Source of the DNA: Acidihalobacter sp.
Lineage (GTDB): Bacteria > Pseudomonadota > Gammaproteobacteria > DSM-5130 > Acidihalobacteraceae
NCBI GenBank assembly: GCA_027013225.1
Contig: JALUXU010000040.1
Span: 1 to 52,772, forward strand
DNA: 52,772 bases
Direction of reading: 5' to 3'
This document shows, one piece after another, positions 5,023 to 47,819 of the stretch (its first letter is position 1; every line of letters starts with the position of its first letter). The position numbers were made by a program, and so were the translations under genes. The notes under the pieces were generated by a model. It did not search any database, was not told where the DNA came from, and saw only the letters and a list, made by a program, of their open reading frames with translations.

Positions 5023-6094
5023 TTCCTGGCGCCAGCTGCTTTTTGTTGGAGCGATCATGAGCCTCGGTGGTTGCTCACTTTTCGGGGGAGGCGGTAATTA
5101 TCAGCAAAGCACCTCTGCACAGGCGTTGCAAATGCCGCCCCAATTGTCGCCTCCTAAGACTGAGAGCACCTATGCTATTCCTCCAGCTTCGGGATTGGGC
5201 GCTCCGTCCTCGCAGATGAGCAGCGCTAACGGCGCGCTGTCCACACAAGCGGGTCAGGCCGGTGTCCTGCCCAAGGTGGCCGGCATGAAGCTCGAGCAGG
5301 CCGGCCCCTTTCATTGGTTACGCGTGGATGCGCCTCCAGGCGTGGTTTGGCCAAAGATCAAAGCCTATTTTCAGGCGCATGGTTATTCCTTTGTCGAAGC
5401 CAATCCCCGCTCTGGTGTTTTGATCACGAATTGGAAAGAAAGCGCTCATGGCCTTCCCAAAGGATTTCTGGGGATGTTGATTCGCAATATTGTTGCTTCC
5501 GGGGAACGCGAGCGTTATGTCGTGCGTCTGGTGGGCGCCCACGATGGCAAGGCGACGGATGTTTTTCTGAGCGAACAAGGGGCGATCAAGGCCAAAGATT
5601 CGCAGGGAGATCTGGTTTGGCAGTGGCAACCGCCCAATCCCGCCAAGGAGGCGACGACATTACAGGCATTGATGGTCTATATGGGTATGCCCAAGCAGGA
5701 AGCCAAAGCCATGCTGGCAGCCAGTCATGCGCCGATGGGTCAACTTTACACGCTAGCCGAGGAAGGCGGTACGCCGGTACTTAAAACCGAGCAGCCCTTC
5801 GCTATAGTCTGGCCTCAGGTGGGTTTGGGGCTGGATCGCGCAAATCTGGTTGTTGAAAAGCAGGATCGAGCCGAAGGGATCTATGCGGTGAAATATGTCG
5901 GTGAGAGTCAGAGCACTCCCTTGCAGCGCCTGTTCGGAGGCGGTTCGGTGCTGAATCATGGTGCCAGATTCGAGATCAAGGTCGTGTCGCAAGGTGGCGC
6001 TGTGCTTATATATGCGATGAATACCGAGGGCAAGCCTCTCCCGGCGAAAGGTGCGCGTGAGGTGCTCGAGCAGCTTCTTGGCAGCCTGCAATAA
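5015..6094 (+). CDS. bamC: Outer-membrane assembly lipoprotein BamC (NlpB)
   Basis: This 359-residue protein has a lipoprotein signal ending in the lipobox LGGC near residue 20, followed by a Gly/Ser/Gln-rich unstructured stretch and two helix-grip domains, typical of BamC. BamC is a periplasm-facing lipoprotein of the BAM complex, which inserts beta-barrel proteins in the outer membrane. The ATG at 5015 is preferred over the one at 5003 because GGAGAT lies four bases before it and the signal peptide then starts normally. It overlaps the end of dapA by eight bases. Sequence conservation in BamC is low, so the assignment leans on the lipobox, the domain pattern and its position behind dapA. 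Confidence 0.88.
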   Translation: MHNSWRQLLFVGAIMSLGGCSLFGGGGNYQQSTSAQALQMPPQLSPPKTESTYAIPPASGLGAPSSQMSSANGALSTQAGQAGVLPKVAGMKLEQAGPFHWLRVDAPPGVVWPKIKAYFQAHGYSFVEANPRSGVLITNWKESAHGLPKGFLGMLIRNIVASGERERYVVRLVGAHDGKATDVFLSEQGAIKAKDSQGDLVWQWQPPNPAKEATTLQALMVYMGMPKQEAKAMLAASHAPMGQLYTLAEEGGTPVLKTEQPFAIVWPQVGLGLDRANLVVEKQDRAEGIYAVKYVGESQSTPLQRLFGGGSVLNHGARFEIKVVSQGGAVLIYAMNTEGKPLPAKGAREVLEQLLGSLQ

Positions 6095-6097
6095 GTC

Positions 6098-6862
6098 GTG
6101 AGTCTGCGATACGCTTCGCTTGGGAGCGGCAGCCGCGGCAATGCTTGCGTCATCGAGGCCGGTAAGACAAGGATTCTGCTCGATTGCGGTTTTTCGGTAT
6201 CCCAGATCGATAAGCGCTTGAGCCGTCTGGGGTTGACCGGCAGTGATCTGGACGCAATCGTGTTGACGCATGAGCACGCCGATCATGCGGCAGGTGTGGC
6301 CCGTCTTTCACGGCGTTACGGCTTACCGGTGTGGACGACTATCGGTACCTTTTCTGCCTGCAAGGATGCCGATTTTCATCGCACCGAAATTTTCCATGCC
6401 CATGAAGCATTCGGGATCGGGGATCTCCACTTGCATCCTTTCCCTGTGCCTCATGATGCGCGCGAACCGGCCCAATTCATATTTGGCGATGGCGCGAAAA
6501 GCCTGGCACAGCTTACTGATGTGGGCAACATCACGCCTCACATAGAGCGTATGTTGAGTCGTCTTGATGCGCTGGTGCTCGAATGCAATTACGAATCCGA
6601 AATGCTGCGGTCGGGGCCTTATCCGCCTGCCTTGCAGGCCCGCGTAGGAGGGCCCTTCGGTCACCTCGGAAACGATCAGGCGGCGGCCTTGCTCGAGTCA
6701 TTGGATACTTCCAGGCTCCAGTGGCTAATGGGCGCCCATCTGAGTGAAAAAAACAACACGCCTGCCCATGCGCGGGCAGCCCTGGCCAAGGGACTGCGGT
6801 GCGATGAGGATGAGATTATTCTGGCGGCCCAGGATGGCGAGACAAGCTGGTATGGCGTCTAG
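6098..6862 (+). CDS. MBL-fold metallo-hydrolase (YycJ/WalJ-like)
   Basis: The 254-residue protein has the metallo-beta-lactamase metal motif THEHADH (near residue 58), an N-terminal GSGSRGNA loop and further metal ligands in a DVGN segment and in the GAHLSEKNN region near the C-terminus. Proteins of this type (YycJ/WalJ, also related to RNase Z-like hydrolases) act in the cytoplasm; the substrate is uncertain, with DNA nuclease activity proposed for some. The start is GTG, three bases after the bamC stop, so it is in the dapA-bamC operon. The usual next gene in this order, purC, is absent; a MITE-like element follows instead. Confidence 0.87.
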   Translation: MSLRYASLGSGSRGNACVIEAGKTRILLDCGFSVSQIDKRLSRLGLTGSDLDAIVLTHEHADHAAGVARLSRRYGLPVWTTIGTFSACKDADFHRTEIFHAHEAFGIGDLHLHPFPVPHDAREPAQFIFGDGAKSLAQLTDVGNITPHIERMLSRLDALVLECNYESEMLRSGPYPPALQARVGGPFGHLGNDQAAALLESLDTSRLQWLMGAHLSEKNNTPAHARAALAKGLRCDEDEIILAAQDGETSWYGV

Positions 6863-7196
6863 GTCGAACATTTACCTCCGCCAGCCGATGAAGTCTTGTA
6901 ACATGACCATTTACACAGGGCCCTGTCATACTAAATTCGTAAGCCGTTGAAAAGTGGAGCGGGTGTCTTCTCGAAAACGTCGGCGGCAAGGAGGCCGCCG
7001 TCGAGCCTACAGGGAGGTGTTCACGGCGTTTTTCCGGGCAGACGCCTGCTCCGCTACGCTACGGTTAGATGACGTGGTCCAGACGATTTACGGCAGAACC
7101 ATTTCTGTGTTGGCAAAAAGCGGATTGTAACCGCCAAAGCTACCCATCGGTCGGCAAGGCGCCTACGAAGTTGGCTACCAGACAGGAATGCGGTGT
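6863..7196. other. Non-coding gap of 334 bases
   Basis: No gene is apparent. The gap holds the MITE-like element described separately (6918-7080) and 116 bases after it in which I see nothing convincing. Confidence 0.6.
6918..7080. mobile_element. MITE-like element, long copy (163 bp)
   Basis: The ends are imperfect inverted repeats: the left end starts GGGCCCTGTCATACTAA and the right end, read on the other strand, starts GGACCACGTCATCTAA. A further inner pair (6956-6968 with 7040-7052) pairs at 11 of 13 positions. Inside lies a perfect 7-bp hairpin, CGGCGGC at 6981-6987 with GCCGCCG at 6994-7000. No reading frame of useful length is present. A second, internally deleted copy lies at 49056-49133. 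No target duplication is evident. It may be a non-autonomous transposon or a decayed insertion sequence. Confidence 0.6.
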
Positions 7197-7724
7197 TTAT
7201 TCGGTGGCGCGAGATCTCGCGCCGCGCAGCCGCTTGAATTCCGTGTTATTGCAGTGAGGGCACGGCGGTATGCGTGCTATGCGGTCGAAGTGGAGTTCTT
7301 CTCCGCAGAATGTGCATGCCAGAACGCCGGGTGCGGTGACTTCGCCGGTATGCAGGAGGGTGGGGCGCCAATGGTGTTCGGCCAGATCCATCAGCTCCAC
7401 GTCGGTTTTGTCAGCCACCGAGAACAACAGATCACGTATCGCGGCTTCGATCAGGGTGGTGTCCATGAGTAGCCAGTCCCGCAAATCTTTTTTTTCTTTG
7501 TCTTGGTGCAAATGATCGCCCAAATCCTGTAGATCGCGAAGAAGGTAACCGGCTATCTTGTCGGCTTCGTCTGGGGTGATTCCCTTGCTCCGTACGGTGT
7601 CTTCGCGGGCCAGATCAATGGCTTTTTCCAGCGGGGCGCCCTCGCCGGTCATGTGCTCGTACATGCGCTCCAGCATGTGCTGGTAGGCTTCTTCCATTTT
7701 CGTGGATTCTTGCTCATTATCCAT
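7197..7724 (-). CDS. Zinc-ribbon protein of the YbeL/DUF1451 family
   Basis: This 175-residue protein has an acidic, helical N-terminal part (about residues 1-120) and a C-terminal zinc ribbon with CTFCG and CPHCN pairs near residues 138 and 156. The middle (HHWRPTLLHTGEVTAPGVLAC) resembles the E. coli YbeL pattern in which a HSGEV segment precedes the ribbon. YbeL is encoded next to leuS-lptE-holA in E. coli and this gene sits near the same cluster, which supports the call. Function is unknown. The last codons contain a perfect 18-bp palindrome at 7206-7223 (GGCGCGAGATCTCGCGCC). An AAGGAAGT ribosome site precedes the ATG. Confidence 0.82.
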   Translation of the reverse strand: MDNEQESTKMEEAYQHMLERMYEHMTGEGAPLEKAIDLAREDTVRSKGITPDEADKIAGYLLRDLQDLGDHLHQDKEKKDLRDWLLMDTTLIEAAIRDLLFSVADKTDVELMDLAEHHWRPTLLHTGEVTAPGVLACTFCGEELHFDRIARIPPCPHCNNTEFKRLRGARSRATE

Positions 7725-7834
7725 AATGACTTCCTTTGCATCGAATGACTACAGTTTAGCGGTTTTACCGTGGCGCAGGGAGACTCGGAAACAGATTTTG
7801 CAGCGGCCTGGAGCAGACGAAGAGGAGTTGGCAC

Positions 7835-7862
7835 GGTAAACTATTTTTGCATATCCATGAGA
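7835..7862 (+). promoter_or_regulatory. Possible promoter for the lipoprotein-leuS run
   Basis: A TTGGCA hexamer is followed after about 16 bases by CATATC, shortly before the lipoprotein gene. The -10 match is weak. The position is right for the long gene run that starts here, but the call is tentative. Confidence 0.25.
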
Positions 7863-7873
7863 GGAGGTTCGGA

Positions 7874-8347
7874 ATGCTTGTTTCGACACGGATAATAGGG
7901 TCATTGGCTGTTGCCTTACCCCTGGTGTTGCTGGGCGGGTGTGCCACGGAGAATTTTAATGCGCAGACCTATCAAACGGGATTGGCCGCGCAACGCGTGG
8001 AGATAGGCCGTGTCGTCGCTATCCGGCAGGTGGCCTTGCAGCCCAATAATGCTGGCGGCGCGATAGGCACGGTGGCGGGAGGATTGATTGGATCACAACT
8101 TGGAGGTGATTCCGATTCCACCGTCATTCACGGCCTGGGTTTGCTGGGTGGCGCGGTGCTCGGCGGCATGCTCGGTCAGTCCATAGGCAACCGTGTGACC
8201 GGTGGGGTCGGGGAGTTGATTACCGTGCGCTTGCGCAGCGGGAGGCTGATCGCCGTCACGGAAACAGGTGCACAGGGAGTTTATGTGGGAGAACGGGTAG
8301 AGGTGTTGTTTTCACCCGATGGCAATGTGCGAGTCCTTCCCTATTGA
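7874..8347 (+). CDS. Glycine-zipper (2TM) outer-membrane lipoprotein
   Basis: The protein has 157 residues. It starts with a lipoprotein signal peptide ending in LLGGC (Cys near residue 24), then a polar segment, then a Gly-rich zipper at about residues 72-122 (GTVAGGLIGSQLGG and GGAVLGGMLGQSIG), and a small C-terminal domain. This layout matches the SlyB/PcpB-like 17-kDa lipoproteins, which sit in the outer membrane and help envelope integrity. I chose the ATG at 7874 because a strong GGAGG lies seven bases upstream and the signal peptide is then complete; an earlier in-frame ATG at 7847 would add nine charged residues. It precedes leuS by 46 bases. Confidence 0.85.
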   Translation: MLVSTRIIGSLAVALPLVLLGGCATENFNAQTYQTGLAAQRVEIGRVVAIRQVALQPNNAGGAIGTVAGGLIGSQLGGDSDSTVIHGLGLLGGAVLGGMLGQSIGNRVTGGVGELITVRLRSGRLIAVTETGAQGVYVGERVEVLFSPDGNVRVLPY

Positions 8348-8393
8348 ATGCCGACGGCGGCAATATCTATCTTTTTAGAAGCGAAGAGTAACT

Positions 8394-10964
8394 ATGCAGG
8401 AACAATATGATCCGGGCTCCGTGGAGGCGGCCGCCCAGCGCTGGTGGGATGAAAATCGCAGTTTCGAAGTGCAGGAGGTGTCAGGGCAGGAAAAATTCTA
8501 TTGCCTGTCGATGTTTCCTTATCCATCGGGGCGATTGCATATGGGGCATGTGCGCAATTACACTCTCAGCGACGTCATAGCCCGCTATCAACGCATGCTA
8601 GGCAAAAACGTGCTTCAGCCGATGGGCTGGGACGCGTTTGGCCTGCCGGCGGAGAATGCGGCCTTGAGCAATCATGAGCCGCCTGCGGCATGGACTTACG
8701 CCAATATCGCCTATATGCGCGAGCAGCTCAAATCCTTGGGTTTCGCTATCGACTGGTCGCGCGAACTGGCCACATGCAAGCCCGACTATTACCGCTGGAA
8801 TCAATGGTTTTTCCTGCGTCTTCTGGAACGTGGCATCGTTTATAAAAAAACCGGCGTCGTGAATTGGGATCCGGTGGATCAGACTGTCCTGGCCAATGAG
8901 CAGGTCATAGAAGGTCGTGGCTGGCGCACCGGAGCGCTGGTGGAAAAGCGGGAAATCCCCATGTATTACGTGGCAATTACCCGCTACGCCCAGGAATTGC
9001 TGGATGGCCTGGACGATTTGCCCGAGTGGCCCGAGCAGGTGCGTACCATGCAGCGCAATTGGATCGGCCGCAGTGAGGGCGTGCGCGTGGGTTTTCCTCA
9101 TCAGATCGACGGTGGTGGCGTGCTGTGGGTGTTCACTACCCGGGCCGACACCCTCATGGGCGCGAGCTACGTCGCCATCGCCCCGGAACACCCGCTGGCC
9201 CTGCATGCAGCAAAACACAATCCCCGCTTGGCCGCGTTCTTGGAGGAATGCCGCCATGTCGGCACCTCCGAGGCTGAACTTGCAGCGCAGGAGAAAAAAG
9301 GCATGGCCACGGGCTTTTCGGTGCAACATCCGCTCAGCAAAGAAGAATTGCCTCTTTGGGTTGCCAACTATGTGCTCATGAGCTATGGCGAAGGCGCGGT
9401 GATGGCCGTGCCTGCTCACGATGAGCGTGATTTCGAGTTCGCACACAAATATGGCCTTCAGATCCGGCCCGTGATCCGCACTTCGGCAGGTGACGAGACG
9501 CCGGCACCTTGGCAGGCCGCATACGCCGAACATGGCGTATGCATCAATTCAGGCAAATACGATGGCCTCGAATTCGAGGCGGCGGTCGAGGCAGTGGCGG
9601 CCGATCTGCAAGCGCGGAAATTGGGCGAGAAAAAAGTCACTTGGCGATTGCGTGATTGGGGAATATCACGCCAACGTTATTGGGGTACGCCGATTCCCAT
9701 CGTCCACTGTGCTCAGTGTGGCGATGTGCCCGTACCCGACGAGCAACTGCCGGTGATGCTGCCCGAGGATCTGGTGCCGGACGGCTCGGGAAACCCCTTG
9801 GCCAAACATGAAGCCTTCGTCAACTGCCATTGCCCTTCTTGTGGGGGGGCTGCGCGGCGGGAAACCGACACGATGGATACCTTTGTCGATTCTTCGTGGT
9901 ACTTCTTTCGTTACACCTGTCCGGATGCGCCTGCCATGGTTGATGAGCGTGCCGATTACTGGATGCCCGTCGATCAGTATGTCGGTGGCATCGAGCATGC
10001 GATTCTGCATCTGTTGTATTCCCGATTCTGGACCAAGGCCATGCGCGATCTCGGCTTGACGCGAGAGAGTGAGCCGTTCAAGCGTTTGCTGACCCAAGGG
10101 ATGGTGGTAGCCCCAACCTTCTATCGCGAAAGTGAGGGAGGCCGCCGCCAATGGTTCAATCCATCCGAGGTGCAGGTGAGTCATGATGAGAAAGGCCGGC
10201 CCGTGGCCGCCGTCCTCAAGGCCGATGGTTTGCCGGTGGAAATGGGGGGTATCGAGAAGATGTCGAAATCCAAGAACAACGGCGTTGACCCTCAGGCCTT
10301 GATCGAACGTTTCGGCGCCGATACAGCTCGCGTATTCACCCTCTTTGCGGCGCCTCCCGAGCAATCCTTGGAATGGCACGAAGCGGGTGTCGAAGGAGCG
10401 CATCGTTTTCTAAAGCGCTTATGGAATTTCGCTGTCGAGCAAAGTTTCGCGGAATCTGCGGAAACGATACCGGAGTCGATGCGGCCAGTGCGCCAGGAAC
10501 TGCATGAGATCTTGCGCCAGGCGCTCGTTGATTTCGAAAAATATCAGTTCAATACCGTGGTCTCGGCTTGCATGAAAATGCTCAATATTCTCAGTCGGCT
10601 GGAGGCCGTGCCAGAAACCGCGGGCGTGCGCCGCGAGGGTCTGTCGATTCTGCTGCGTTTGCTATCGCCCATTGCGCCTCATATCAGCCATCATCTGTGG
10701 CGCGTACTTGGTTTTGGGGACGATATCCTCGATGCTCCATGGCCGCAAGTGGATGCAAGCGCTCTGCAAAAGGATGTGCTGAAGCTGGTGGTCCAGGTCA
10801 ACGGGAAACTTCGTGGCCACATCGGGGTTCCGACCCACGCGGATCGGGAAACGATAGAAAAAACGGCGCTTGCCGAACCCAACGTGGCGCGTTTCACCGA
10901 AGGCCGCACAGTACGCAAAGTCATCGTCGTACCGGGCCGTTTGGTTAATGTGGTCGTCGCATGA
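8394..10964 (+). CDS. leuS: Leucyl-tRNA synthetase
   Basis: LeuS charges tRNA-Leu with leucine. At 856 residues it has the normal bacterial length (E. coli 860). The class I signatures are present: the HIGH-type HMGH in [16 protein letters not shown] near residue 50 and KMSKSKNNG near residue 621. Between them lies the large CP1 editing domain (about residues 220-410) with the [10 protein letters not shown] and AVPAHDERD segments typical of the hydrolytic site. The tail ends in the [16 protein letters not shown] region. Its stop codon overlaps the lptE start (ATGA), so translation of the two is probably coupled. Confidence 0.98.
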
Positions 10965-39360: not shown

Positions 39361-41808
39361 ATGGCGTTAAAGAAATCCGAGCTCTACTCCTCTCTCTGGC
39401 AATCCTGCGACGAGCTGCGCGGCGGGATGGATGCCTCGCAGTATAAGGACTATGTCCTGACCCTGCTGTTCCTCAAATACATCTCCGACAAGTACGCCGG
39501 GGATCCCAAGGCCCTCATCGTGGTGCCCGAGGGCGGTTCCTTCGACGACATGGCGCGCCTCAAGGGCGACAAGGAGATCGGCGACAGGATCAACAAGATC
39601 ATCGGCCGCCTGGCCGAGGAGAACGACCTCAAGGGCGTCATCGACGTCGCCGACTTCAACGACGAAGACAAGCTCGGCAAGGGCAAGGAGATGGTGGACC
39701 GGCTTTCGAAGCTCATCGCCATCTTCGAGACCATCGACCTGCGCGCCAACCGCGCCGACGGCGACGACCTGCTGGGCGACGCCTACGAATACCTGATGCG
39801 TCACTTCGCCACCGAGTCGGGCAAGAGCAAGGGGCAGTTCTACACCCCGGCCGAGGTCTCGCGGATTCTGGCCAAGGTCATCGGTGTCGGCAAGGACACC
39901 CGCCAGGACCAGTCGGTGTACGACCCCACATGCGGCTCGGGTTCGCTGCTGCTCAAGGTGGCCCACGAGGCCCCGCGCGGCCTCTCCATCTTCGGCCAGG
40001 AGATGGACAACGCCACCGCTGCCCTCGCGCGCATGAACATGATCCTGCACGATGCCCCCACCGCCGAGATCTGGCAGGGCAACACCCTGGCCAACCCGCA
40101 CTGGAAGGAGAAGGATGGCCGCCTCAAGACCTTCGACTACGCCGTGGCCAATCCGCCCTTCTCCTACAAGGCCTGGAGCAACGGCCTCGACCCCGAGCAT
40201 GACGAATACGGTCGCTTCGAATACGGCATCCCGCCGGCCAAGAACGGCGACTACGCCTTCCTGCTGCACATCCTCAAGTCGCTCAAGAGCACCGGCAAGG
40301 GCGCGGTCATCCTGCCCCACGGCGTGCTGTTCCGCGGCGGGGCCGAGGCCAACATCCGCCGCAACCTGGTCCGGCGCGGCTTCATCCGGGGCATCATCGG
40401 CCTGCCGGCCAACCTGTTCTACGGCACCGGCATCCCCGCCTGCATCCTGGTCCTCGACAAGGAACACGCCGCCGAGAACGCCGACCCCGAACAGGGCGGC
40501 ATCTTCATGATCGACGCCAGCAAGGGCTTCATGAAGGACGGCAACAAGAACCGCCTGCGCGAGCGCGACATCCACAAGATCGTCGATGTCTTCACCGGCC
40601 GCAAGGAACTGCCGCGCTATGCCCGCTTCGTGCCCCTGCGCGAGATCGAGGCCAACGACTACAACCTCAACATCCCGCGCTATATCGATGCCAGCGACCC
40701 CGAGGACCTGCACGACCTCAACGCCCACCTCAACGGCGGCATCCCCAACCGCGACATCGACGCCCTGCAGGACTACTGGCAGATCTTCCCGACCCTGCGC
40801 GACAGCCTGTTCGAGTCCCTGCGCCCCGGCTACAGTCAAGCCAGCATAGAGCCGGCGCAGGTCAAACCCACCATCCTCGAACACCCCGAATTCGCCGCCT
40901 TCCGCGAGCGCATCCTCGAGCGCTTCCACGCCTGGCGCGACCCGCACCGGCCCGGCCTCATGGGCCTGAATGGCGACACCGAGCCCAAGGCGCTCGTCCA
41001 CGAACTGTCCGAGGCCTTGCTGGAGCAGTTTGAAGGTGCTCCGCTTATCGACCCCTATGCCGTCTACCAGCACCTGATGGACTACTGGGCCGAGACCATG
41101 CAGGACGATGTCTATGCCATCGTCCAGGACGGCTGGCAGGCCGCCGCCAGGCCCCGCGAGCTGGTGGCCGAGAAAGGCCAGAAGCACACGGAGATCCCGG
41201 ACCTCACCATCGGCCGCAAGAAATACAAGACCGACCTCATTCCGCCAGATCTCATCGTCGCCCGCTACTTCGCCGAGGAGCAAAAGCACATCGACCAGCT
41301 CCAGGCCGAGGCCGACGCCGCTGCGCAGGCGCTGGAGAGCTTTATCGAGGAGCATTCGGGCGAGGACGGCCTGCTGGAAGAGGCCAAGACCGACAAGGGC
41401 AAGATCACCAAGGCCAGGGTGAAGCAATTGACAATGGACAATGGACAATGGACAGCGGAGGAGAGGGTGGCATTGAAACATTGTCTGGCGCTGTTCAACG
41501 CCGAGGCCGCCGCCAACAAGCAGCTCAAGGACGCCATCAAGGCCCGCGACGAGGCGGTATTGAAGCACTACGCCAAACTCACCGAGGCCGAGATCAAGGA
41601 ACTGGTGGTGGACGACAAATGGCTCGCCGCTCTCGAACAGGCCGTGCAGGGCGAGATCGAGCGCGTCACCCAACAGCTCGCCACCCGCATCCGGGAGCTG
41701 GAGGAACGCTACGCCGAGCCGCTGCCCGAGATCATGCAGGAGGTGGAGACCCTGCAGGCCAGGGTGGACGAACACCTGCGCAGGATGGGGCTCGCTATCA
41801 ATGAATAG
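39361..41808 (+). CDS. hsdM: Type I restriction-modification DNA methyltransferase subunit M
   Basis: HsdM methylates adenine at sites chosen by HsdS. The 815-residue protein has an N-terminal helical domain (residues 1-150), then the methylase: FYTPAEVSRILA, the SAM motif DPTCGSGSLL near residue 188 and the catalytic NPPF near 263. It belongs to the long class with a C-terminal extension of about 300 residues with coiled-coil character. At 41427-41454 four tandem 7-bp repeats lie inside the gene and encode TMDNGQW in a loop before the last helices. The stop codon lies at the edge of another repeat array. Composition is clearly more GC-rich than in the housekeeping genes around, suggesting transfer. 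Confidence 0.95.
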   Translation: MALKKSELYSSLWQSCDELRGGMDASQYKDYVLTLLFLKYISDKYAGDPKALIVVPEGGSFDDMARLKGDKEIGDRINKIIGRLAEENDLKGVIDVADFNDEDKLGKGKEMVDRLSKLIAIFETIDLRANRADGDDLLGDAYEYLMRHFATESGKSKGQFYTPAEVSRILAKVIGVGKDTRQDQSVYDPTCGSGSLLLKVAHEAPRGLSIFGQEMDNATAALARMNMILHDAPTAEIWQGNTLANPHWKEKDGRLKTFDYAVANPPFSYKAWSNGLDPEHDEYGRFEYGIPPAKNGDYAFLLHILKSLKSTGKGAVILPHGVLFRGGAEANIRRNLVRRGFIRGIIGLPANLFYGTGIPACILVLDKEHAAENADPEQGGIFMIDASKGFMKDGNKNRLRERDIHKIVDVFTGRKELPRYARFVPLREIEANDYNLNIPRYIDASDPEDLHDLNAHLNGGIPNRDIDALQDYWQIFPTLRDSLFESLRPGYSQASIEPAQVKPTILEHPEFAAFRERILERFHAWRDPHRPGLMGLNGDTEPKALVHELSEALLEQFEGAPLIDPYAVYQHLMDYWAETMQDDVYAIVQDGWQAAARPRELVAEKGQKHTEIPDLTIGRKKYKTDLIPPDLIVARYFAEEQKHIDQLQAEADAAAQALESFIEEHSGEDGLLEEAKTDKGKITKARVKQLTMDNGQWTAEERVALKHCLALFNAEAAANKQLKDAIKARDEAVLKHYAKLTEAEIKELVVDDKWLAALEQAVQGEIERVTQQLATRIRELEERYAEPLPEIMQEVETLQARVDEHLRRMGLAINE
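41427..41454 (+). repeat. Heptad array 1, inside hsdM
   Basis: Four tandem 7-bp units: ATTGACA followed by three copies of ATGGACA. They are read as part of hsdM. The three exact copies make this the most regular array of the set, and no stop codon appears in any frame. Confidence 0.85.
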
Positions 41809-41841
41809 TTGATAATGGATAATTGACAATGGATGATGGAC
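41807..41841 (+). repeat. Heptad array 2, between hsdM and the S23 gene
   Basis: Five degenerate units (AGTTGAT, AATGGAT, AATTGAC, AATGGAT, GATGGAC) start within the hsdM stop codon. Bases 41821-41842 recur at 42211-42232 with one mismatch. Confidence 0.85.
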
Positions 41842-42212
41842 AGGGACGTGTGAAGGGGAGTGTGGTTCGGGACAAGTCGTTTGCCTTTGCGGTGCGCGTG
41901 GTGCGTTTGTGTCAGCATGTGCAGCAGGAAAGACGCGAATATGTGCTGAGCAAGCAGTTGTTGCGCAGTGGCACTGCGATCGGCGCCTTGATTCGGGAAG
42001 CGGATCAGGCAGAAAGCCGGGCCGACTTTGTTCACAAGATGTCGATTGCACTCAAGGAAGCGAATGAATCGGAGTACTGGATTCAGTTGCTCAAAGAAAC
42101 CGGCTATATCGATGCGAAGGGTGCGGAATCCATTGGTTCGGATTTGACGGAGATATTGAAGTTGCTGGTGGCGATTGTGAAGAAAAACAAAGAGATAATG
42201 GGTGATGGGTAA
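41829..42212 (+). CDS. Four-helix-bundle protein of the S23 / 23S-intervening-sequence family
   Basis: The 127-residue protein matches the S23-type four-helix-bundle family (TIGR02436), with the typical helices FAVRVVRLCQHVQ, SKQLLRSGTAIGALIREADQAES, FVHKMSIALKEANESEYWI and an end helix. Family members occur inside 23S rRNA intervening sequences and as inserts in other operons; DGR accessory protein Avd shares the fold. Its function is unknown. Here it sits between hsdM and hsdS, reads from a repeat array (TTG 41823 or ATG 41829) and ends inside the next, so start and stop are both made of heptad units. Confidence 0.88.
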   Translation: MDDGQGRVKGSVVRDKSFAFAVRVVRLCQHVQQERREYVLSKQLLRSGTAIGALIREADQAESRADFVHKMSIALKEANESEYWIQLLKETGYIDAKGAESIGSDLTEILKLLVAIVKKNKEIMGDG

Positions 42213-42235
42213 TTGACAATGGATAATGGACAATG
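42194..42235 (+). repeat. Heptad array 3, end of S23 gene and start of hsdS
   Basis: Six units (GATAATG, GGTGATG, GGTAATT, GACAATG, GATAATG, GACAATG). It supplies the TAA stop of the S23 gene at 42210-42212 and, directly after it, the TTG/ATG starts of hsdS. Confidence 0.85.
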
Positions 42236-43541
42236 CCACGAAGCCCCTGCCGATTATCAATTATCCATTGACCATTCTCCATTGGACGAGGTTCCGGCGG
42301 GATACAAGCGGACCGAGGTGGGGGTGATTCCGGAGGATTGGGATGTTTCTCAGGTAGACTCTCTAATTTCCGAAATTTCAATGGGGCCATTTGGTTCAGA
42401 TATAAAAGTTTCGAATTTTGTATCGTCTGGGGTTCCTGTGTTGAATGGATTCAATGTGAGTTCCGAAAGGCTTATAGACTCTTTTACTAACTACGTTACC
42501 CAAGAAAAAGCAAAAAGACTAAAAAAAGCTGTTGCATCTAGAGGGGATATTGTTGTTACACATCGTGGCACTATTGGTCAAATATCTTACATACCTTCTG
42601 ATTCAAAATATGAGAAGTACGTAATATCTCAAAGTCAGTTTAGAGTGAGGTTTAGAAAGGACGTTCTTCCAAGTTGGGTTACATCTTATTTTTTATCGGA
42701 CAAGGGGGCGCTGGCTTTGCTTGAAGGCAAGGGCCACACTGGCGTCCCTGCGATTGCTCAGCCAACGACTACCTTTCGAAAACTTAAAATTCCAGTACCT
42801 CCAATCGAAGAACAACGCGCCATCGCCACCGCCCTGTCGGACGTCGATGCACTCATCGCTGCGCTGGACAAGCTCATCGCCAAAAAGCGCGCCATCAAAA
42901 CTGCCGCCATGCAGCAGCTCCTCACCGGCAAAACCCGCCTGCCGGGCTTCAGCGGCGAATGGGAAACGAAGCGGTTGGGAGAACTAGCCGAGGTGGTAAG
43001 CGGTGGAACGCCCAAGTCGGGTGTTGCTGAATATTGGGATGGAGGGATTTTCTGGTGTACGCCAACAGATGTTACAAAAACTCAGGGAAAGTATATTGAT
43101 GGCAGTGAAAGAACGATTTCTAAAGAGGGATTGCTGGCTAGCTCGGCACATCTTTTACCGCCGGGATCAATTTTATTATGTACCCGGGCAACAATTGGAG
43201 AAATGAAAATCTCAACTGTGCCAATAGCAACCAACCAGGGATTTAAGTCGTTGGTATGCAAGGAGGATGTGAGTAGTGAATTTTTATATTATAAGCTCTT
43301 GATGGAAAAAGGCCGATTGATTGAAAAAGCCTCGGGTTCGACGTTCCTGGAAATATCCAAGAGGGATGTGGTTGAACTCACTCTGCGGCTGCCGGAAATC
43401 GAAGAGCAAACCGCCATCGCCCAGGTCCTCTCCGACATGGACGCCGAGATCGCCGCCCTGGAAACCCGCCGCGACAAGACCCGCGCCATCAAGCAGGGCA
43501 TGATGCAGCAGCTTCTCACCGGCAAGATAAGGCTGGTTTGA
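42219..43541 (+). CDS. hsdS: Type I restriction-modification specificity subunit
   Basis: HsdS reads a bipartite DNA target. The 440-residue protein has two target-recognition domains (about residues 25-200 and 235-390) and two similar conserved helical regions ending EEQRAIATALSDVDALIAAL...QQLLTGKTRL and EEQTAIAQVLSDMDAEIAAL...QQLLTGKIRL. Both recognition domains are AT-rich while the helices are GC-rich, so they were probably exchanged separately. The N-terminal 20 residues before VPAGYKRTEVGVIPEDW are encoded by repeat arrays and look non-native. TTG at 42213 is an alternative start. Confidence 0.94.
   Translation: MDNGQCHEAPADYQLSIDHSPLDEVPAGYKRTEVGVIPEDWDVSQVDSLISEISMGPFGSDIKVSNFVSSGVPVLNGFNVSSERLIDSFTNYVTQEKAKRLKKAVASRGDIVVTHRGTIGQISYIPSDSKYEKYVISQSQFRVRFRKDVLPSWVTSYFLSDKGALALLEGKGHTGVPAIAQPTTTFRKLKIPVPPIEEQRAIATALSDVDALIAALDKLIAKKRAIKTAAMQQLLTGKTRLPGFSGEWETKRLGELAEVVSGGTPKSGVAEYWDGGIFWCTPTDVTKTQGKYIDGSERTISKEGLLASSAHLLPPGSILLCTRATIGEMKISTVPIATNQGFKSLVCKEDVSSEFLYYKLLMEKGRLIEKASGSTFLEISKRDVVELTLRLPEIEEQTAIAQVLSDMDAEIAALETRRDKTRAIKQGMMQQLLTGKIRLV
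42254..42284 (-). repeat. Heptad array 4, inverted, in the hsdS 5' end
   Basis: Units in the opposite orientation (TTATCAA, TTATCCA, TTGACCA, TTCTCCA). With array 3 it can form an imperfect hairpin around an 18-base spacer. It is translated as part of the HsdS N-terminus. Confidence 0.8.
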
Positions 43542-43543
43542 TC

Positions 43544-43576
43544 AATGGATAATGGAGAATTGATAATGGATATTGG
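43544..43576 (+). repeat. Heptad array 5, directly after the hsdS stop
   Basis: Units AATGGAT, AATGGAG, AATTGAT, AATGGAT and a partial unit follow hsdS by two bases. Confidence 0.85.
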
Positions 43577-43623
43577 CGCAGCGTTATTGAGCGGCGGGAG
43601 CCATAAAACCGCGCTCTTTGTCG

Positions 43624-43665
43624 ATTTTCCATTATCCATTGTCCATTATCCATCGCCCATTATAC
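43624..43665 (-). repeat. Heptad array 6, inverted, before the RhuM-Fic gene
   Basis: Units ATTTTCC, ATTATCC, ATTGTCC, ATTATCC, ATCGCCC, ATTATAC. It is complementary to array 5 across a 47-base spacer and could form a long hairpin 10 bases ahead of the next gene. Confidence 0.85.
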
Positions 43666-43675
43666 GGAGTTTGCC

Positions 43676-44668
43676 ATGGGCGATATTCTGATCTACGAAA
43701 CCGAAGACCAGCAGGTGGAAGTCCGGCTGGAGCGGGAGACCGTCTGGCTGACTCAGAAGCAGATGAGCGAGCTGTTGGAAACCTCGACGGACAACATCAG
43801 CCTCCATCTGAAAAATATCTATGCCGACAATGAGTTATCGGAGGCGGCAACTACCGAGGATTTCTCGGTAGTTCGGCAGGAAGGGGGGCGACGGGTCCGG
43901 CGAACACTCAGGCATTACAATCTGGATGCCATCATTTCCGTTGCCTACCGGGTCAATTCACGGCGCGGCACGCAGTTCCGCATCTGGGCCACCCAGCGCC
44001 TGCGTGACTACTTGGTGAAGGGCTACGCCATCGACCGCCAGCGGCTGGAGCAGAACGCCCGGGAGCTGGAGCAGGCGCTGAAACTGGTGAAGAAGGCCGC
44101 TCGTTCCCCGGTGCTGGATACCGACGCGGGGCGCGGGCTGGTGGAGATCATCAGCCGCTATACCCAGACCTTTTTGTGGCTGCAGCGTTATGACGAGGGC
44201 CTGCTGAAGGAACCTGCGGGCCACAAGGGCGGGAAGCTGCCGTCACCCGAGGAGGCCATGGCCGACCTGGCCCGACTCAAGCAGGACTTGATGGCGCGCG
44301 GCGAGGCCACGGAGCTGTTCGCCCGTCCACGCGATGATGGGCTGGCAGGGATCTTCGGTAATCTGGAGCAAAGCGTCTTCGGTGAACCGGCCTATCCAAC
44401 CATCGAGAGCAAGGCGGCGCACCTGCTCTATTTCGTGGTCAAGGATCACCCCTTTGCCGACGGCAACAAGCGCAGCGCGGCCTTTCTGTTCGTGGATTTT
44501 CTGCACCGTAACGGCAGGCTGTTCGATGCGGAGGGGCAGCCGATCATCAACGACACCGGATTGGCGGCACTGACCCTGCTGGTGGCGGAATCGGACCCGA
44601 AACAGAAAGCGATACTGATTCGGCTGATCATGAACCTGCTGGCGGATCAAGAGAAGCCAGATGAGTAG
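43676..44668 (+). CDS. RhuM-type N-domain fused to a Fic/Doc domain
   Basis: The 330-residue protein begins with a RhuM-like part (residues 1-130, WLTQKQMSELLETSTDNISLHLKNI, a helix-turn-helix-like stretch) and ends with a Fic/Doc domain whose motif HPFADGNKRSA starts at His258. The motif is nearer the Doc version (HxFx..NKR) than the AMP-transferase version (HPFxxGNGRxxR), so its chemistry is unclear. Such genes often lie inside type I restriction operons but their role is unknown. GGAG precedes the ATG; the stop overlaps hsdR by eight bases. Confidence 0.88.
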   Translation: MGDILIYETEDQQVEVRLERETVWLTQKQMSELLETSTDNISLHLKNIYADNELSEAATTEDFSVVRQEGGRRVRRTLRHYNLDAIISVAYRVNSRRGTQFRIWATQRLRDYLVKGYAIDRQRLEQNARELEQALKLVKKAARSPVLDTDAGRGLVEIISRYTQTFLWLQRYDEGLLKEPAGHKGGKLPSPEEAMADLARLKQDLMARGEATELFARPRDDGLAGIFGNLEQSVFGEPAYPTIESKAAHLLYFVVKDHPFADGNKRSAAFLFVDFLHRNGRLFDAEGQPIINDTGLAALTLLVAESDPKQKAILIRLIMNLLADQEKPDE

Positions 44669-47600
44669 CGTCGGCCAAAAAGAACGCCGGACCCAGGCCC
44701 GGGTCGTCGGGCTCTTCCACAAGGAACTGGGCTACGACTACCTCGGCAACTGGATCGACCGCGAGAACAACCGCAACATCGAGGAGGGCCTGCTGCGCGA
44801 TTGGCTGAAGCGGCGTGGCTATGCCGACAGCCTGATCACCCGTGCCCTGCACCAGCTCGACAAGGCAGCGGCGTTGGGCGAGGGCAAGCACCTCTACGAT
44901 GCCAACAAGGCGGTCTACAGGCTGCTGCGGTACGGCGTGAAGGTCAAGGAGGGGGCTGGTGAGCCGTTCCAGACCGTGTGGCTCATCGACTGGGCGAAGC
45001 CGGAGGCCAACGACTTTGCTATTGCTGAGGAGGTCTCCGTCACCGGCGAGAATACCAAGCGCCCCGACATCGTGCTCTATGTGAACGGCATCGCCCTTGG
45101 CGTGCTGGAGCTGAAGCGCGCCACGGTGGCCGTGAGCGAGGGCATCCGCCAAAACCTCGACAACCAGAAGAAGGCCTTCATTCGGGGATTTTTCACGACC
45201 CAGCAACTGGTGATGGCGGGCAACGACACCGAGGGCCTGCGCTACGGCACCATCGAGACGCCGGAGAAGTATTACCTGGCCTGGAAGGAGACAGGTAATG
45301 ATGAACGGACAATGGATAATGGACAATCATCGCTGTCCCCCCTGGATACTGCGCTACGGCAGCTCTGCAACAAGCAGCGGTTTCTAGAGATCATCCACGA
45401 CTTCGTGGTCTTCGATGCCGGCATCAAGAAGCTGCCCCGCCACAATCAGTATTTCGGCGTCAAGGCGGCGCAGGCGCGGATTCGTGCCCGAGAGGGCGGC
45501 ATCATCTGGCACACCCAGGGTTCGGGCAAGTCGCTGACCATGGTGTGGCTGACCAAGTGGATCCGCGAGCACGTGGAGAATGCCCGGGTGCTGGTGGTCA
45601 CCGACCGCACCGAGTTGGACGAGCAGATTGAGCGCGTCTATCTGGGGGTCAATGAGGCCATCTATCGCACCCGAAGCGGCGCGGACCTCATTGCCCAGCT
45701 CAACACCACCGATCAGTGGCTGATGTGCTCGCTGGTGCACAAGTTCGGGCGCAGCGAGGATGCCGCCACGGACGAGTTCATCGACGAGCTGGAAAAGAGC
45801 CTGCCCAAGGGCTTCTCCGCCAAGGGCAATCTGTTCGTGTTCGTGGACGAGTGCCATCGCAGCCAGTCGGACAAGCTGCACAAGGCGATGAAGAAGATCC
45901 TGCCGGAGGCGATGTTCATCGGTTTTACCGGCACGCCACTGCTCAAGGCCGACAAGCAGAAGAGCATCGAGGTGTTCGGGCCCTATATTCACACCTACAA
46001 GTTCGACGAGGCGGTGCGCGACGGGGTGGTGCTGGACCTGCGCTACGAGGCGCGGGACATCGACCAGGTGCTGATCGCCCCGGACAAGGTGGACCAGTGG
46101 TTCGAGGCCAAGACGCGGGGGCTGTCGGATCTGGCGCGTGTCCAGCTCAAGCGGAAATGGGGCACCCTGCAGAAGGTGCTCAGCTCCCAGTCGCGGCTGG
46201 AGAAGATCGTCGCCGACATCCTGTTCGACATGGAGACCCGCGACCGTCTCATGAGCGGGCGGGGCAACGCCATGCTGGTCTCCAGCAGCATCTACCAGGC
46301 CTGCAAGCTTTACGAGCTGTTCAGCAGGACGCCGCTGGCCGGCAAATGCGCCATCGTCACCAGCTACAAGCCGTCGCCGGCCGACATCAAGGGCGAGGAG
46401 ACCGGCGAGGGCATGACCGAGCGCCTGCGCCAATACGCCATCTATCGCAGGATGCTGGCCGACTGGTTCGAGCAGGACGAAGAAAAGGCTATGTATCGCG
46501 TCGATGAGTTCGAGCAGCAGGTCAAGGAGAAGTTCATCAAGGAACCGGGGCAGATGAAGCTGCTTATCGTGGTGGACAAGCTGCTTACCGGCTTCGACGC
46601 CCCGCCCGCTACCTATCTCTACATCGACAAGCAGATGCGCGACCACGGTCTGTTCCAGGCCATTTGCCGGGTTAACCGCCTGCACACCGAGGATAAGGAA
46701 TACGGCTACATCATCGACTATAAGGATCTGTTCAAGTCGCTGGAGGGCGCTATCCAGGACTACACCGGTGAGGCGCTGGGTGGGTACGACAAGGCCGACG
46801 TGGCAGGTCTGCTGGAAGACCGGCTGGCCAAGGGCAGGGAACGCCTCGAAGAAGCGCTGGAACAGGTGCGCGCCCTGTGCGAGCCGGTCGAGCCTCCGAA
46901 GGATACCAGGGCCTATCTGCACTACTTCTGCGCCGCCGACACCGCCGACAAGGAGGCGCTCAAGGACAACGAGCCGAAGCGCATCGCGCTGTACAAGGCA
47001 GTCGCGGCCCTGCTGCGCGCCTTCGCCAACCTGGCCAACGAGCTGCCCGAGGCGGGCTACAGTGAGGCGGATATCGAGCGGCTTCGGTATGAAGTAAAGC
47101 ACTACGAGCAGGTTCGGGAAGAGGTGAAGCTGGCCAGCGCCGACTACCTGAACATGAAGCTGTACGAACCGGCCATGCGCCACCTGCTCGATACCTATAT
47201 CGAGGCCAAGGAAAGCCGCGTGCTGTCGGCTTTCGACGAACAGGGCCTGGTGGATCTGATCGTGCAACAGGGGCCGGAGGCATTCGAGCGCTTGCCCGAG
47301 AGCATCCGCTCGGACCGTGACGCCATGGCCGAGACCATCGAGAACAACCTGCGCAAGCTCATCATCGACGAGCAGCCCGTAAACCCGAAGTACTACGAGC
47401 GCATGTCCGAGCTGCTGGATGCGCTGATTGAGGAACGCCGGCAACAAGCACTGGAGTACGAGGAATACCTGCAGCGGCTGGTCGAGCTGTCGGAGAAGGT
47501 CAAGAACCCGGCCGGAGCATCCCACTATCCGCCCAGCATCAACAGCCCCGCGCGGCGCGCCCTGTATGACAACCTCAAGGACAGGCCCGAACTCGAGGCC

Positions 47601-47819
47601 ATCGCCAGTGAAAGCGAGATGGTGGCCGACACCCAGGATCTGGCCGAACATCTTGCCCGGACCATCGACGAGGTGGTGCGCAAGACCAAGAAGGCCGACT
47701 GGCGTGGCAATCGCTTCAAGGAGCGGGAGGTGCGAAACGCTATTGCCGAAGTCATCGGTTCACATGATGAACTGGTGGATCTCTTGTTCGAAATCATGAA
47801 AAACCAGGATGAATACTGA
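44661..47819 (+). CDS. hsdR: Type I restriction enzyme subunit R
   Basis: HsdR is the ATP-driven motor and nuclease of the complex. The 1052-residue protein has a PD-(D/E)xK nuclease in the N-terminal part (PDIVLYVNG, then GVLELKRA near residues 135-152), a P-loop GSGKS near 288, the DEAD-type motif DECH near 397, FTGTPL and the helicase motif region through residue 800, and a C-terminal helical domain. Array 7 inserts the peptide TMDNGQ near residue 218, between nuclease and motor. It overlaps both neighbours and shares the high GC of hsdM. Confidence 0.96.
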   Translation: MSSVGQKERRTQARVVGLFHKELGYDYLGNWIDRENNRNIEEGLLRDWLKRRGYADSLITRALHQLDKAAALGEGKHLYDANKAVYRLLRYGVKVKEGAGEPFQTVWLIDWAKPEANDFAIAEEVSVTGENTKRPDIVLYVNGIALGVLELKRATVAVSEGIRQNLDNQKKAFIRGFFTTQQLVMAGNDTEGLRYGTIETPEKYYLAWKETGNDERTMDNGQSSLSPLDTALRQLCNKQRFLEIIHDFVVFDAGIKKLPRHNQYFGVKAAQARIRAREGGIIWHTQGSGKSLTMVWLTKWIREHVENARVLVVTDRTELDEQIERVYLGVNEAIYRTRSGADLIAQLNTTDQWLMCSLVHKFGRSEDAATDEFIDELEKSLPKGFSAKGNLFVFVDECHRSQSDKLHKAMKKILPEAMFIGFTGTPLLKADKQKSIEVFGPYIHTYKFDEAVRDGVVLDLRYEARDIDQVLIAPDKVDQWFEAKTRGLSDLARVQLKRKWGTLQKVLSSQSRLEKIVADILFDMETRDRLMSGRGNAMLVSSSIYQACKLYELFSRTPLAGKCAIVTSYKPSPADIKGEETGEGMTERLRQYAIYRRMLADWFEQDEEKAMYRVDEFEQQVKEKFIKEPGQMKLLIVVDKLLTGFDAPPATYLYIDKQMRDHGLFQAICRVNRLHTEDKEYGYIIDYKDLFKSLEGAIQDYTGEALGGYDKADVAGLLEDRLAKGRERLEEALEQVRALCEPVEPPKDTRAYLHYFCAADTADKEALKDNEPKRIALYKAVAALLRAFANLANELPEAGYSEADIERLRYEVKHYEQVREEVKLASADYLNMKLYEPAMRHLLDTYIEAKESRVLSAFDEQGLVDLIVQQGPEAFERLPESIRSDRDAMAETIENNLRKLIIDEQPVNPKYYERMSELLDALIEERRQQALEYEEYLQRLVELSEKVKNPAGASHYPPSINSPARRALYDNLKDRPELEAIASESEMVADTQDLAEHLARTIDEVVRKTKKADWRGNRFKEREVRNAIAEVIGSHDELVDLLFEIMKNQDEY
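45294..45328 (+). repeat. Heptad array 7, inside hsdR
   Basis: Units GGTAATG, ATGAACG, GACAATG, GATAATG, GACAATC, read in frame as GNDERTMDNGQS. The same peptide core TMDNGQ is found in the hsdM insert. Confidence 0.85.

Follow-up and report, generated by a model that had tools for sequence, protein, structure and literature searches.

The hsd operon in the 52,772-nucleotide contig of an Acidihalobacter sp. analysed here (the window) consists, on the plus strand, of hsdM, an S23 gene, hsdS, a RhuM-Fic gene, hsdR and a YgjP-like gene. The locus raises the question of how an S23 gene came to lie between hsdM and hsdS. S23 proteins have mostly been encountered in rRNA intervening sequences (IVSs), as passengers without an explanation, a problem that has been open since about 1990. 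The product is a clear member of the family (PF05635, 93.2 bits versus a curated cut-off of 33.8) with a relative of solved structure (2rld, E 9e-39), and its gene is the only PF05635 gene of the genome. The gene is under strong purifying selection, with dN/dS of 0.06 between the window and a related operon (L017, described below) and of 0.02–0.19 in the other computable pairs. The RhuM-Fic gene, a fusion, also lies inside the operon, between hsdS and hsdR.

The original prediction, made from the sequence alone, was that the S23 gene is a cassette bracketed by a 22-bp direct repeat, through which it could be deleted. The repeat itself was confirmed: a single mismatch separates 41821-41842 from 42211-42232, the two copies lie 390 bp apart, and a 22-bp repeat with one mismatch arose in 0 of 200 shuffles of the surrounding 2.2 kb. 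The open reading frame list and the PF05635 match place the whole S23 gene (41823-42212) in this interval, and both S23 and hsdS begin with TTG ACA ATG GAT within a repeat copy, as had been noticed; in-frame ATG codons at 41829 (S23) and 42219 (hsdS) are alternative starts to the two TTG codons. From the hsdM stop (41806-41808) to the S23 TTG the distance is 14 bases. A point overlooked earlier is that the 22-mer belongs to degenerate 7-nt tandem arrays, its two copies being held in longer stretches (41799-41842 and 42194-42235). It is thus a generic piece of arrays that occur at seven places in the operon, which argues against its being a cassette boundary or excision site.

The array unit is AATKGAY, in degenerate tandem copies. 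A phase-aware scan of the window detected seven arrays, all within 41425-45327 (about 4 kb of the hsd operon), five on the plus and two on the minus strand (Table 1). Genome-wide counts were made by exact pattern searches: the two-unit pattern AATKGAYAATKGAY has 11 matches in 2.27 Mb, 11 of 11 in the hsd operon, and its reversed control has none. Arms at 41799-41830 and 42253-42284, 78% complementary, bracket S23 in inverted orientation, and the predicted RNA fold closes around the S23 open reading frame (z -2.5). The second 22-bp copy is an extra array in direct orientation between S23 and the inverted arm, so that the window departs from the layout usual elsewhere: direct arrays adjoin S23, and the inverted arm is farther out. 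The S23-less inverted pair at 43543-43663 is predicted to form a long hairpin (RNA fold -50.2 kcal/mol, z -5.6). A search of the operon against Rfam gave no relevant match.

Table 1. Genes and heptamer arrays of the hsd operon, with positions in the window
Position	Strand	Feature	Basis
39361..41808	+	hsdM (host gene)	Pfam N6_Mtase, HsdM_N
41425..41454	+	Lone heptamer array, in frame (TMDNGQW), in the length-variable hsdM linker	Array scan, HsdM alignment
41799..41842	+	Array on the upstream side of the putative S23 element, sharing bases with the hsdM stop and the start region of S23; first 22-bp copy inside	Array scan, inverted-partner search
41823..42212	+	S23 four-helix-bundle gene	ORF; PF05635 (23S_rRNA_IVP); dN/dS 0.06 vs L017
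42194..42235	+	Downstream direct array; codes the S23 C-terminus; hsdS start and second 22-bp copy inside	Array scan
42213..43541	+	hsdS; about 25 N-terminal codons array-derived	Pfam, HsdS alignment
42253..42284	-	Downstream inverted array, right arm of the putative element, read within the hsdS ORF	Array scan; same in L017
43543..43576	+	Left arm of an inverted pair of heptamer arrays without S23, located between hsdS and RhuM-Fic	Array scan, RNA fold
43618..43663	-	Right arm of the same inverted pair without S23	Array scan, RNA fold
43676-44668	+	RhuM-Fic gene	Pfam/ORF
44661..47819	+	hsdR (host gene)	Pfam HSDR_N, SWI2_SNF2
45307..45327	+	Lone heptamer array, in frame (TMDNGQ), in the length-variable hsdR linker	Array scan

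We compared the hsdM/hsdS junction in the best 80 hsdM relatives, where the count of junctions is a lower bound because the contigs of some end near the junction. One of them, the Chromatiales MAG locus L017 (86% HsdM identity), has the same element: S23 lies at the junction with the same arrays in the same frame and spacing, at 87% DNA identity to the window. Apart from L017, none of the 79 other relatives has S23 there (some of their contigs end near the junction), contrary to the possibility that all close relatives share the gene, which would have told against a cassette. At the L022 junction there is an array and no S23. In L013 (77% HsdM identity), the nearest homologous junction without S23, hsdM leads directly to hsdS with neither S23 nor array, and the S23 block therefore looks like an insertion. 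The earlier idea is correct in substance and mistaken on the edges: the comparison supports an S23 cassette inserted between hsdM and hsdS, but the 22-bp direct repeat is not its edge, and a role of the repeat in excision finds no support.

In L075 (Thiodictyon), an S23 gene bracketed by arrays of the AATKGAY unit lies directly before hsdR. The window HsdS can be aligned with most of its relatives only from residue 24-27 onwards, so its N-terminus of about 25 residues is array-derived, presumably by fusion or by restart of translation. The HsdM linker of L017 (within 6001-8547) reads VIPAEAGIQ where the window has the heptamer-coded insert; this looks like the translated form of another common palindromic repeat, and the linker seems to collect small repeats.

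The association between S23 genes and heptamer arrays extends far beyond hsd operons. Our sample of 211 distinct S23 genes was drawn from the relatives, from the window's own phylum, from the phyla of a cyanobacterium and of an Ignavibacteriales MAG that both carry hsdM, and from further genomes with hsdM, and includes orthologous insertions (74 pairs with common surroundings). The density of period-7 arrays is 23.8 per 10 kb up to 100 bp from these genes, 8.2 between 100 and 200 bp and 0.3-0.8 beyond 300 bp, an enrichment of about 40-fold nearby. Period 8 has a smaller peak (5.5 per 10 kb), and periods 5, 10, 11 and 13 have none; in some loci, such as L208, L220, L223 and L300, the S23 gene has 8-nt arrays, likewise inverted. 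Where arrays occur on both sides, the unit on the left is the reverse complement of that on the right in 56 loci and has the same orientation in 5, so bracketing by direct repeats, as originally seen in the window, is not the rule. The similarity of the two units within a locus is 0.80, versus 0.525 for shuffled pairs. Scored directly, inverted arms flank 128 of 202 S23 genes (3 in the reversed control); 170 of the 202 have 7/8-mer arrays or inverted arms, and about a sixth have neither at the thresholds used. Six plasmid S23 loci of named organisms, examined in a separate collection, all have period-7 arrays, most of them both-sided and inverted.

The S23 genes are co-oriented with their neighbours in 130 of the 151 contexts in which both neighbours are parallel. 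On the coding strand the upstream arrays are G-rich and C-poor, and 55 of 84 contain stops in all three frames, compared with 29 for the opposite strand and 19 for shuffled sequence.

The units vary widely between loci (GGGAGTA, GTAGGCA, GAGTTCT and TTAGTCA, for example), and they vary with the S23 protein. The unit of the S23 locus on Dolichospermum pAfl69 is GTAATTC. Unit similarity rises from 0.49 at less than 25% S23 identity to 0.65-0.70 at 55-75%, and the correlation holds for pairs without common surroundings and with the GC difference removed (partial r 0.21, against a maximum of 0.11 in 500 permutations). Within one genome, the units of distant S23 genes resemble each other no more closely (0.47) than do those of different genomes (0.50). 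The window's own values in this comparison are too low, since its downstream array was mis-oriented, the direct array being nearer to S23 than the inverted one. The unit thus goes with the S23 lineage and not with the genome, a covariation that could reflect common descent of the whole element or recognition, and that argues against a genome-wide cause of the arrays. Presence of AATKGAY per genome, by strict pattern, did not track presence of S23 per genome because the unit is lineage-specific, and the local test was used instead.

Evidence on gain and loss comes from one genus, that of locus L162, where the element is flanked by a gene ending ..LIGR and a gene starting M.TIAFIGLG. Among 61 genomes, about 18 have filled sites, where the flanks are 428-572 bp apart, and the S23 gene is missing from about 40. 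Eleven of these S23-less sites were read over their whole length; they have gaps of 24-40 bp, and their flanks are as much as 93% identical. At this junction, one genome carries an inverted array of a different heptamer with no S23 gene. The array of a filled site adjoins or replaces the stop codon and stops short of the ribosome-binding site. Comparison of empty and filled sites of this genus revealed no target duplication. The filled/empty label requires eight changes on a tree of one flank, built from 30 loci that are best matches and over-represent filled sites; these changes may be gains, losses or flank recombination, and presence and absence in the genus could be explained by loss or flank recombination as well as by insertion. 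Between 177 pairs of loci, homology is limited to the S23 gene and its arrays.

The element was also compared with two kinds of mobile DNA. It resembles an insertion sequence or MITE in having inverted terminal repeats, but the target-site duplication of such DNA transposons was not visible at the sites compared in the L162 genus. A diversity-generating retroelement, with S23 as an Avd-like partner, calls for a reverse transcriptase, and a PF00078 search of the window's own genome gave no match. With no target duplication, no recombinase and, in the own genome, no reverse transcriptase, we assign no route of movement.

We conclude that S23 and its heptamer arrays are likely to constitute an IVS-like insertion element of about 490 bp in the hsdM/hsdS junction, one of a widespread class in which a four-helix-bundle S23 gene lies between inverted 7-nt (sometimes 8-nt) arrays, each S23 lineage having a unit of its own. 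Hairpins without S23 and lone arrays in the hsd operon are probably derivatives of the element.

Other explanations fare less well. S23 could instead be cargo moved by homologous recombination between dispersed, pre-existing heptamer satellites, with the direct repeat marking a crossover. The evidence disfavours that possibility and we regard it as unlikely: the 22-bp direct repeat around the window S23 and the S23-less arrays, in the hsd operon and at the L022 junction, would fit it, but by exact pattern search such arrays are confined to the operon in the window's own genome, all unit matches in G149 and G152 flank one S23 gene, and each S23 lineage has its own unit. Moreover, recombination between flanking arrays that are inverted as a rule would produce inversion and not deletion, and empty sites in the genus of L162 retain no array.

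Because 7 is not a multiple of 3, slippage in the arrays of hsdM, hsdS and hsdR might also switch restriction on and off. These arrays are read in frame in all three genes, and array copy number differs among the filled sites of the L162 genus. Such phase variation nevertheless seems improbable here, as the arrays of the window are imperfect and L017 has kept their spacing and frame, and it would leave unexplained the S23 gene, the inverted arms and the arrays around S23 genes in unrelated operons. That the arrays are slippage-prone or regulatory intergenic DNA of the host, where S23 merely happens to be located, is very unlikely: although heptamer arrays have been reported, with no mention of S23, from Beggiatoaceae, Cyanobacteria, Bacteroidetes and Xanthomonas (PMC4679880, PMC4692102), units follow the S23 lineage and not the genome, and intergenic DNA holds 3.3 arrays per kb close to S23, compared with 0.43 in the rest of the same loci and 0.01 in hsdM loci that lack S23.

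The closest known counterpart of the IVS-like element is the 23S rRNA IVS of Coxiella burnetii, which is 428 nt long, has an S23 open reading frame preceded by three to four GACAGAT heptamers and has complementary ends, with a heptamer copy number that differs between strains (PMC4990558). The element described here likewise combines an S23 gene, upstream tandem heptamers and complementary ends that are predicted to form a stem around the open reading frame. The Coxiella IVS lies in helix 45 of the 23S rRNA, from which RNase III cuts it out, and its S23 gene is thought to be unexpressed and decaying (PMC4990558); in contrast, the element in the window is located in a protein operon, at the hsdM/hsdS junction, with an S23 gene under strong purifying selection.

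Heptamer arrays have also been reported in their own right. TAACTGA direct repeats, with a unit one base off that of the window, occur patchily in Beggiatoaceae, Cyanobacteria and Bacteroidetes, often just before start codons, and have indels in 7-nt steps; no gene is reported to accompany them, and S23 is unmentioned (PMC4679880). GGGAATC and GGGGA(T/C)T heptamers of Xanthomonas and Nostoc, described as quadruplex-forming regulatory repeats, are intergenic arrays, some inverted, likewise without a link to S23 (PMC4692102). REP sequences with TnpA-REP (RAYT) are similar in outline, as a small gene lies between matching inverted repeats and gene-less copies occur elsewhere (PMC8266576). However, RAYT is a Y1 transposase, whereas the S23 protein is a four-helix bundle in which no catalytic residues are known, and the arms around its gene are tandem heptamers. 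In an open-access full-text search (preprints and subscription journals were outside its scope), the sole paper with both S23 and heptamers was that on the Coxiella IVS (PMC4990558), and no paper found describes a general S23-heptamer association.

S23-bearing 23S rRNA IVSs look like the same element placed in rRNA. We propose that each S23 protein recognises the array that accompanies its gene, whether as DNA or as an RNA hairpin, and that it would serve the persistence or spread of the element. The upstream array, with stops in all frames and many possible starts, may end translation of the preceding gene and let the next gene restart, so that insertion into operons could be tolerated. More tentatively, S23 with matched inverted 7/8-mer arrays may represent an unrecognised class of mobile element, transposase-less and present in several phyla, in which self-array recognition drives movement into operons and whose members that landed in rRNA are the IVSs; we put this at somewhat less than an even chance. 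Movement could occur at the RNA level, because S23 is co-oriented with its neighbouring genes. S23 proteins, which are common (present in 61 of 80 sampled genomes of the G145 phylum), would thereby gain a defined genetic context, the anatomy of an insertion element and a candidate partner in their own heptamer array. The heptamer arrays reported without cause in several phyla would gain a possible origin, and both would be tied to the IVS problem.

With a single S23 protein as query, no S23 relative was found in viral contigs. In L109 (1320-2100), S23 and its arrays lie between two tRNA genes. S23 elements also occur between cas2 and cas1, in antisense, in Anabaena cylindrica (L360, pANACY.01) and between csx2 and cas1 in Pseudanabaena (L363, pPg_04). 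Together with the hsd cases, these may point to a preference for defence operons, or may reflect plasmid sampling alone.
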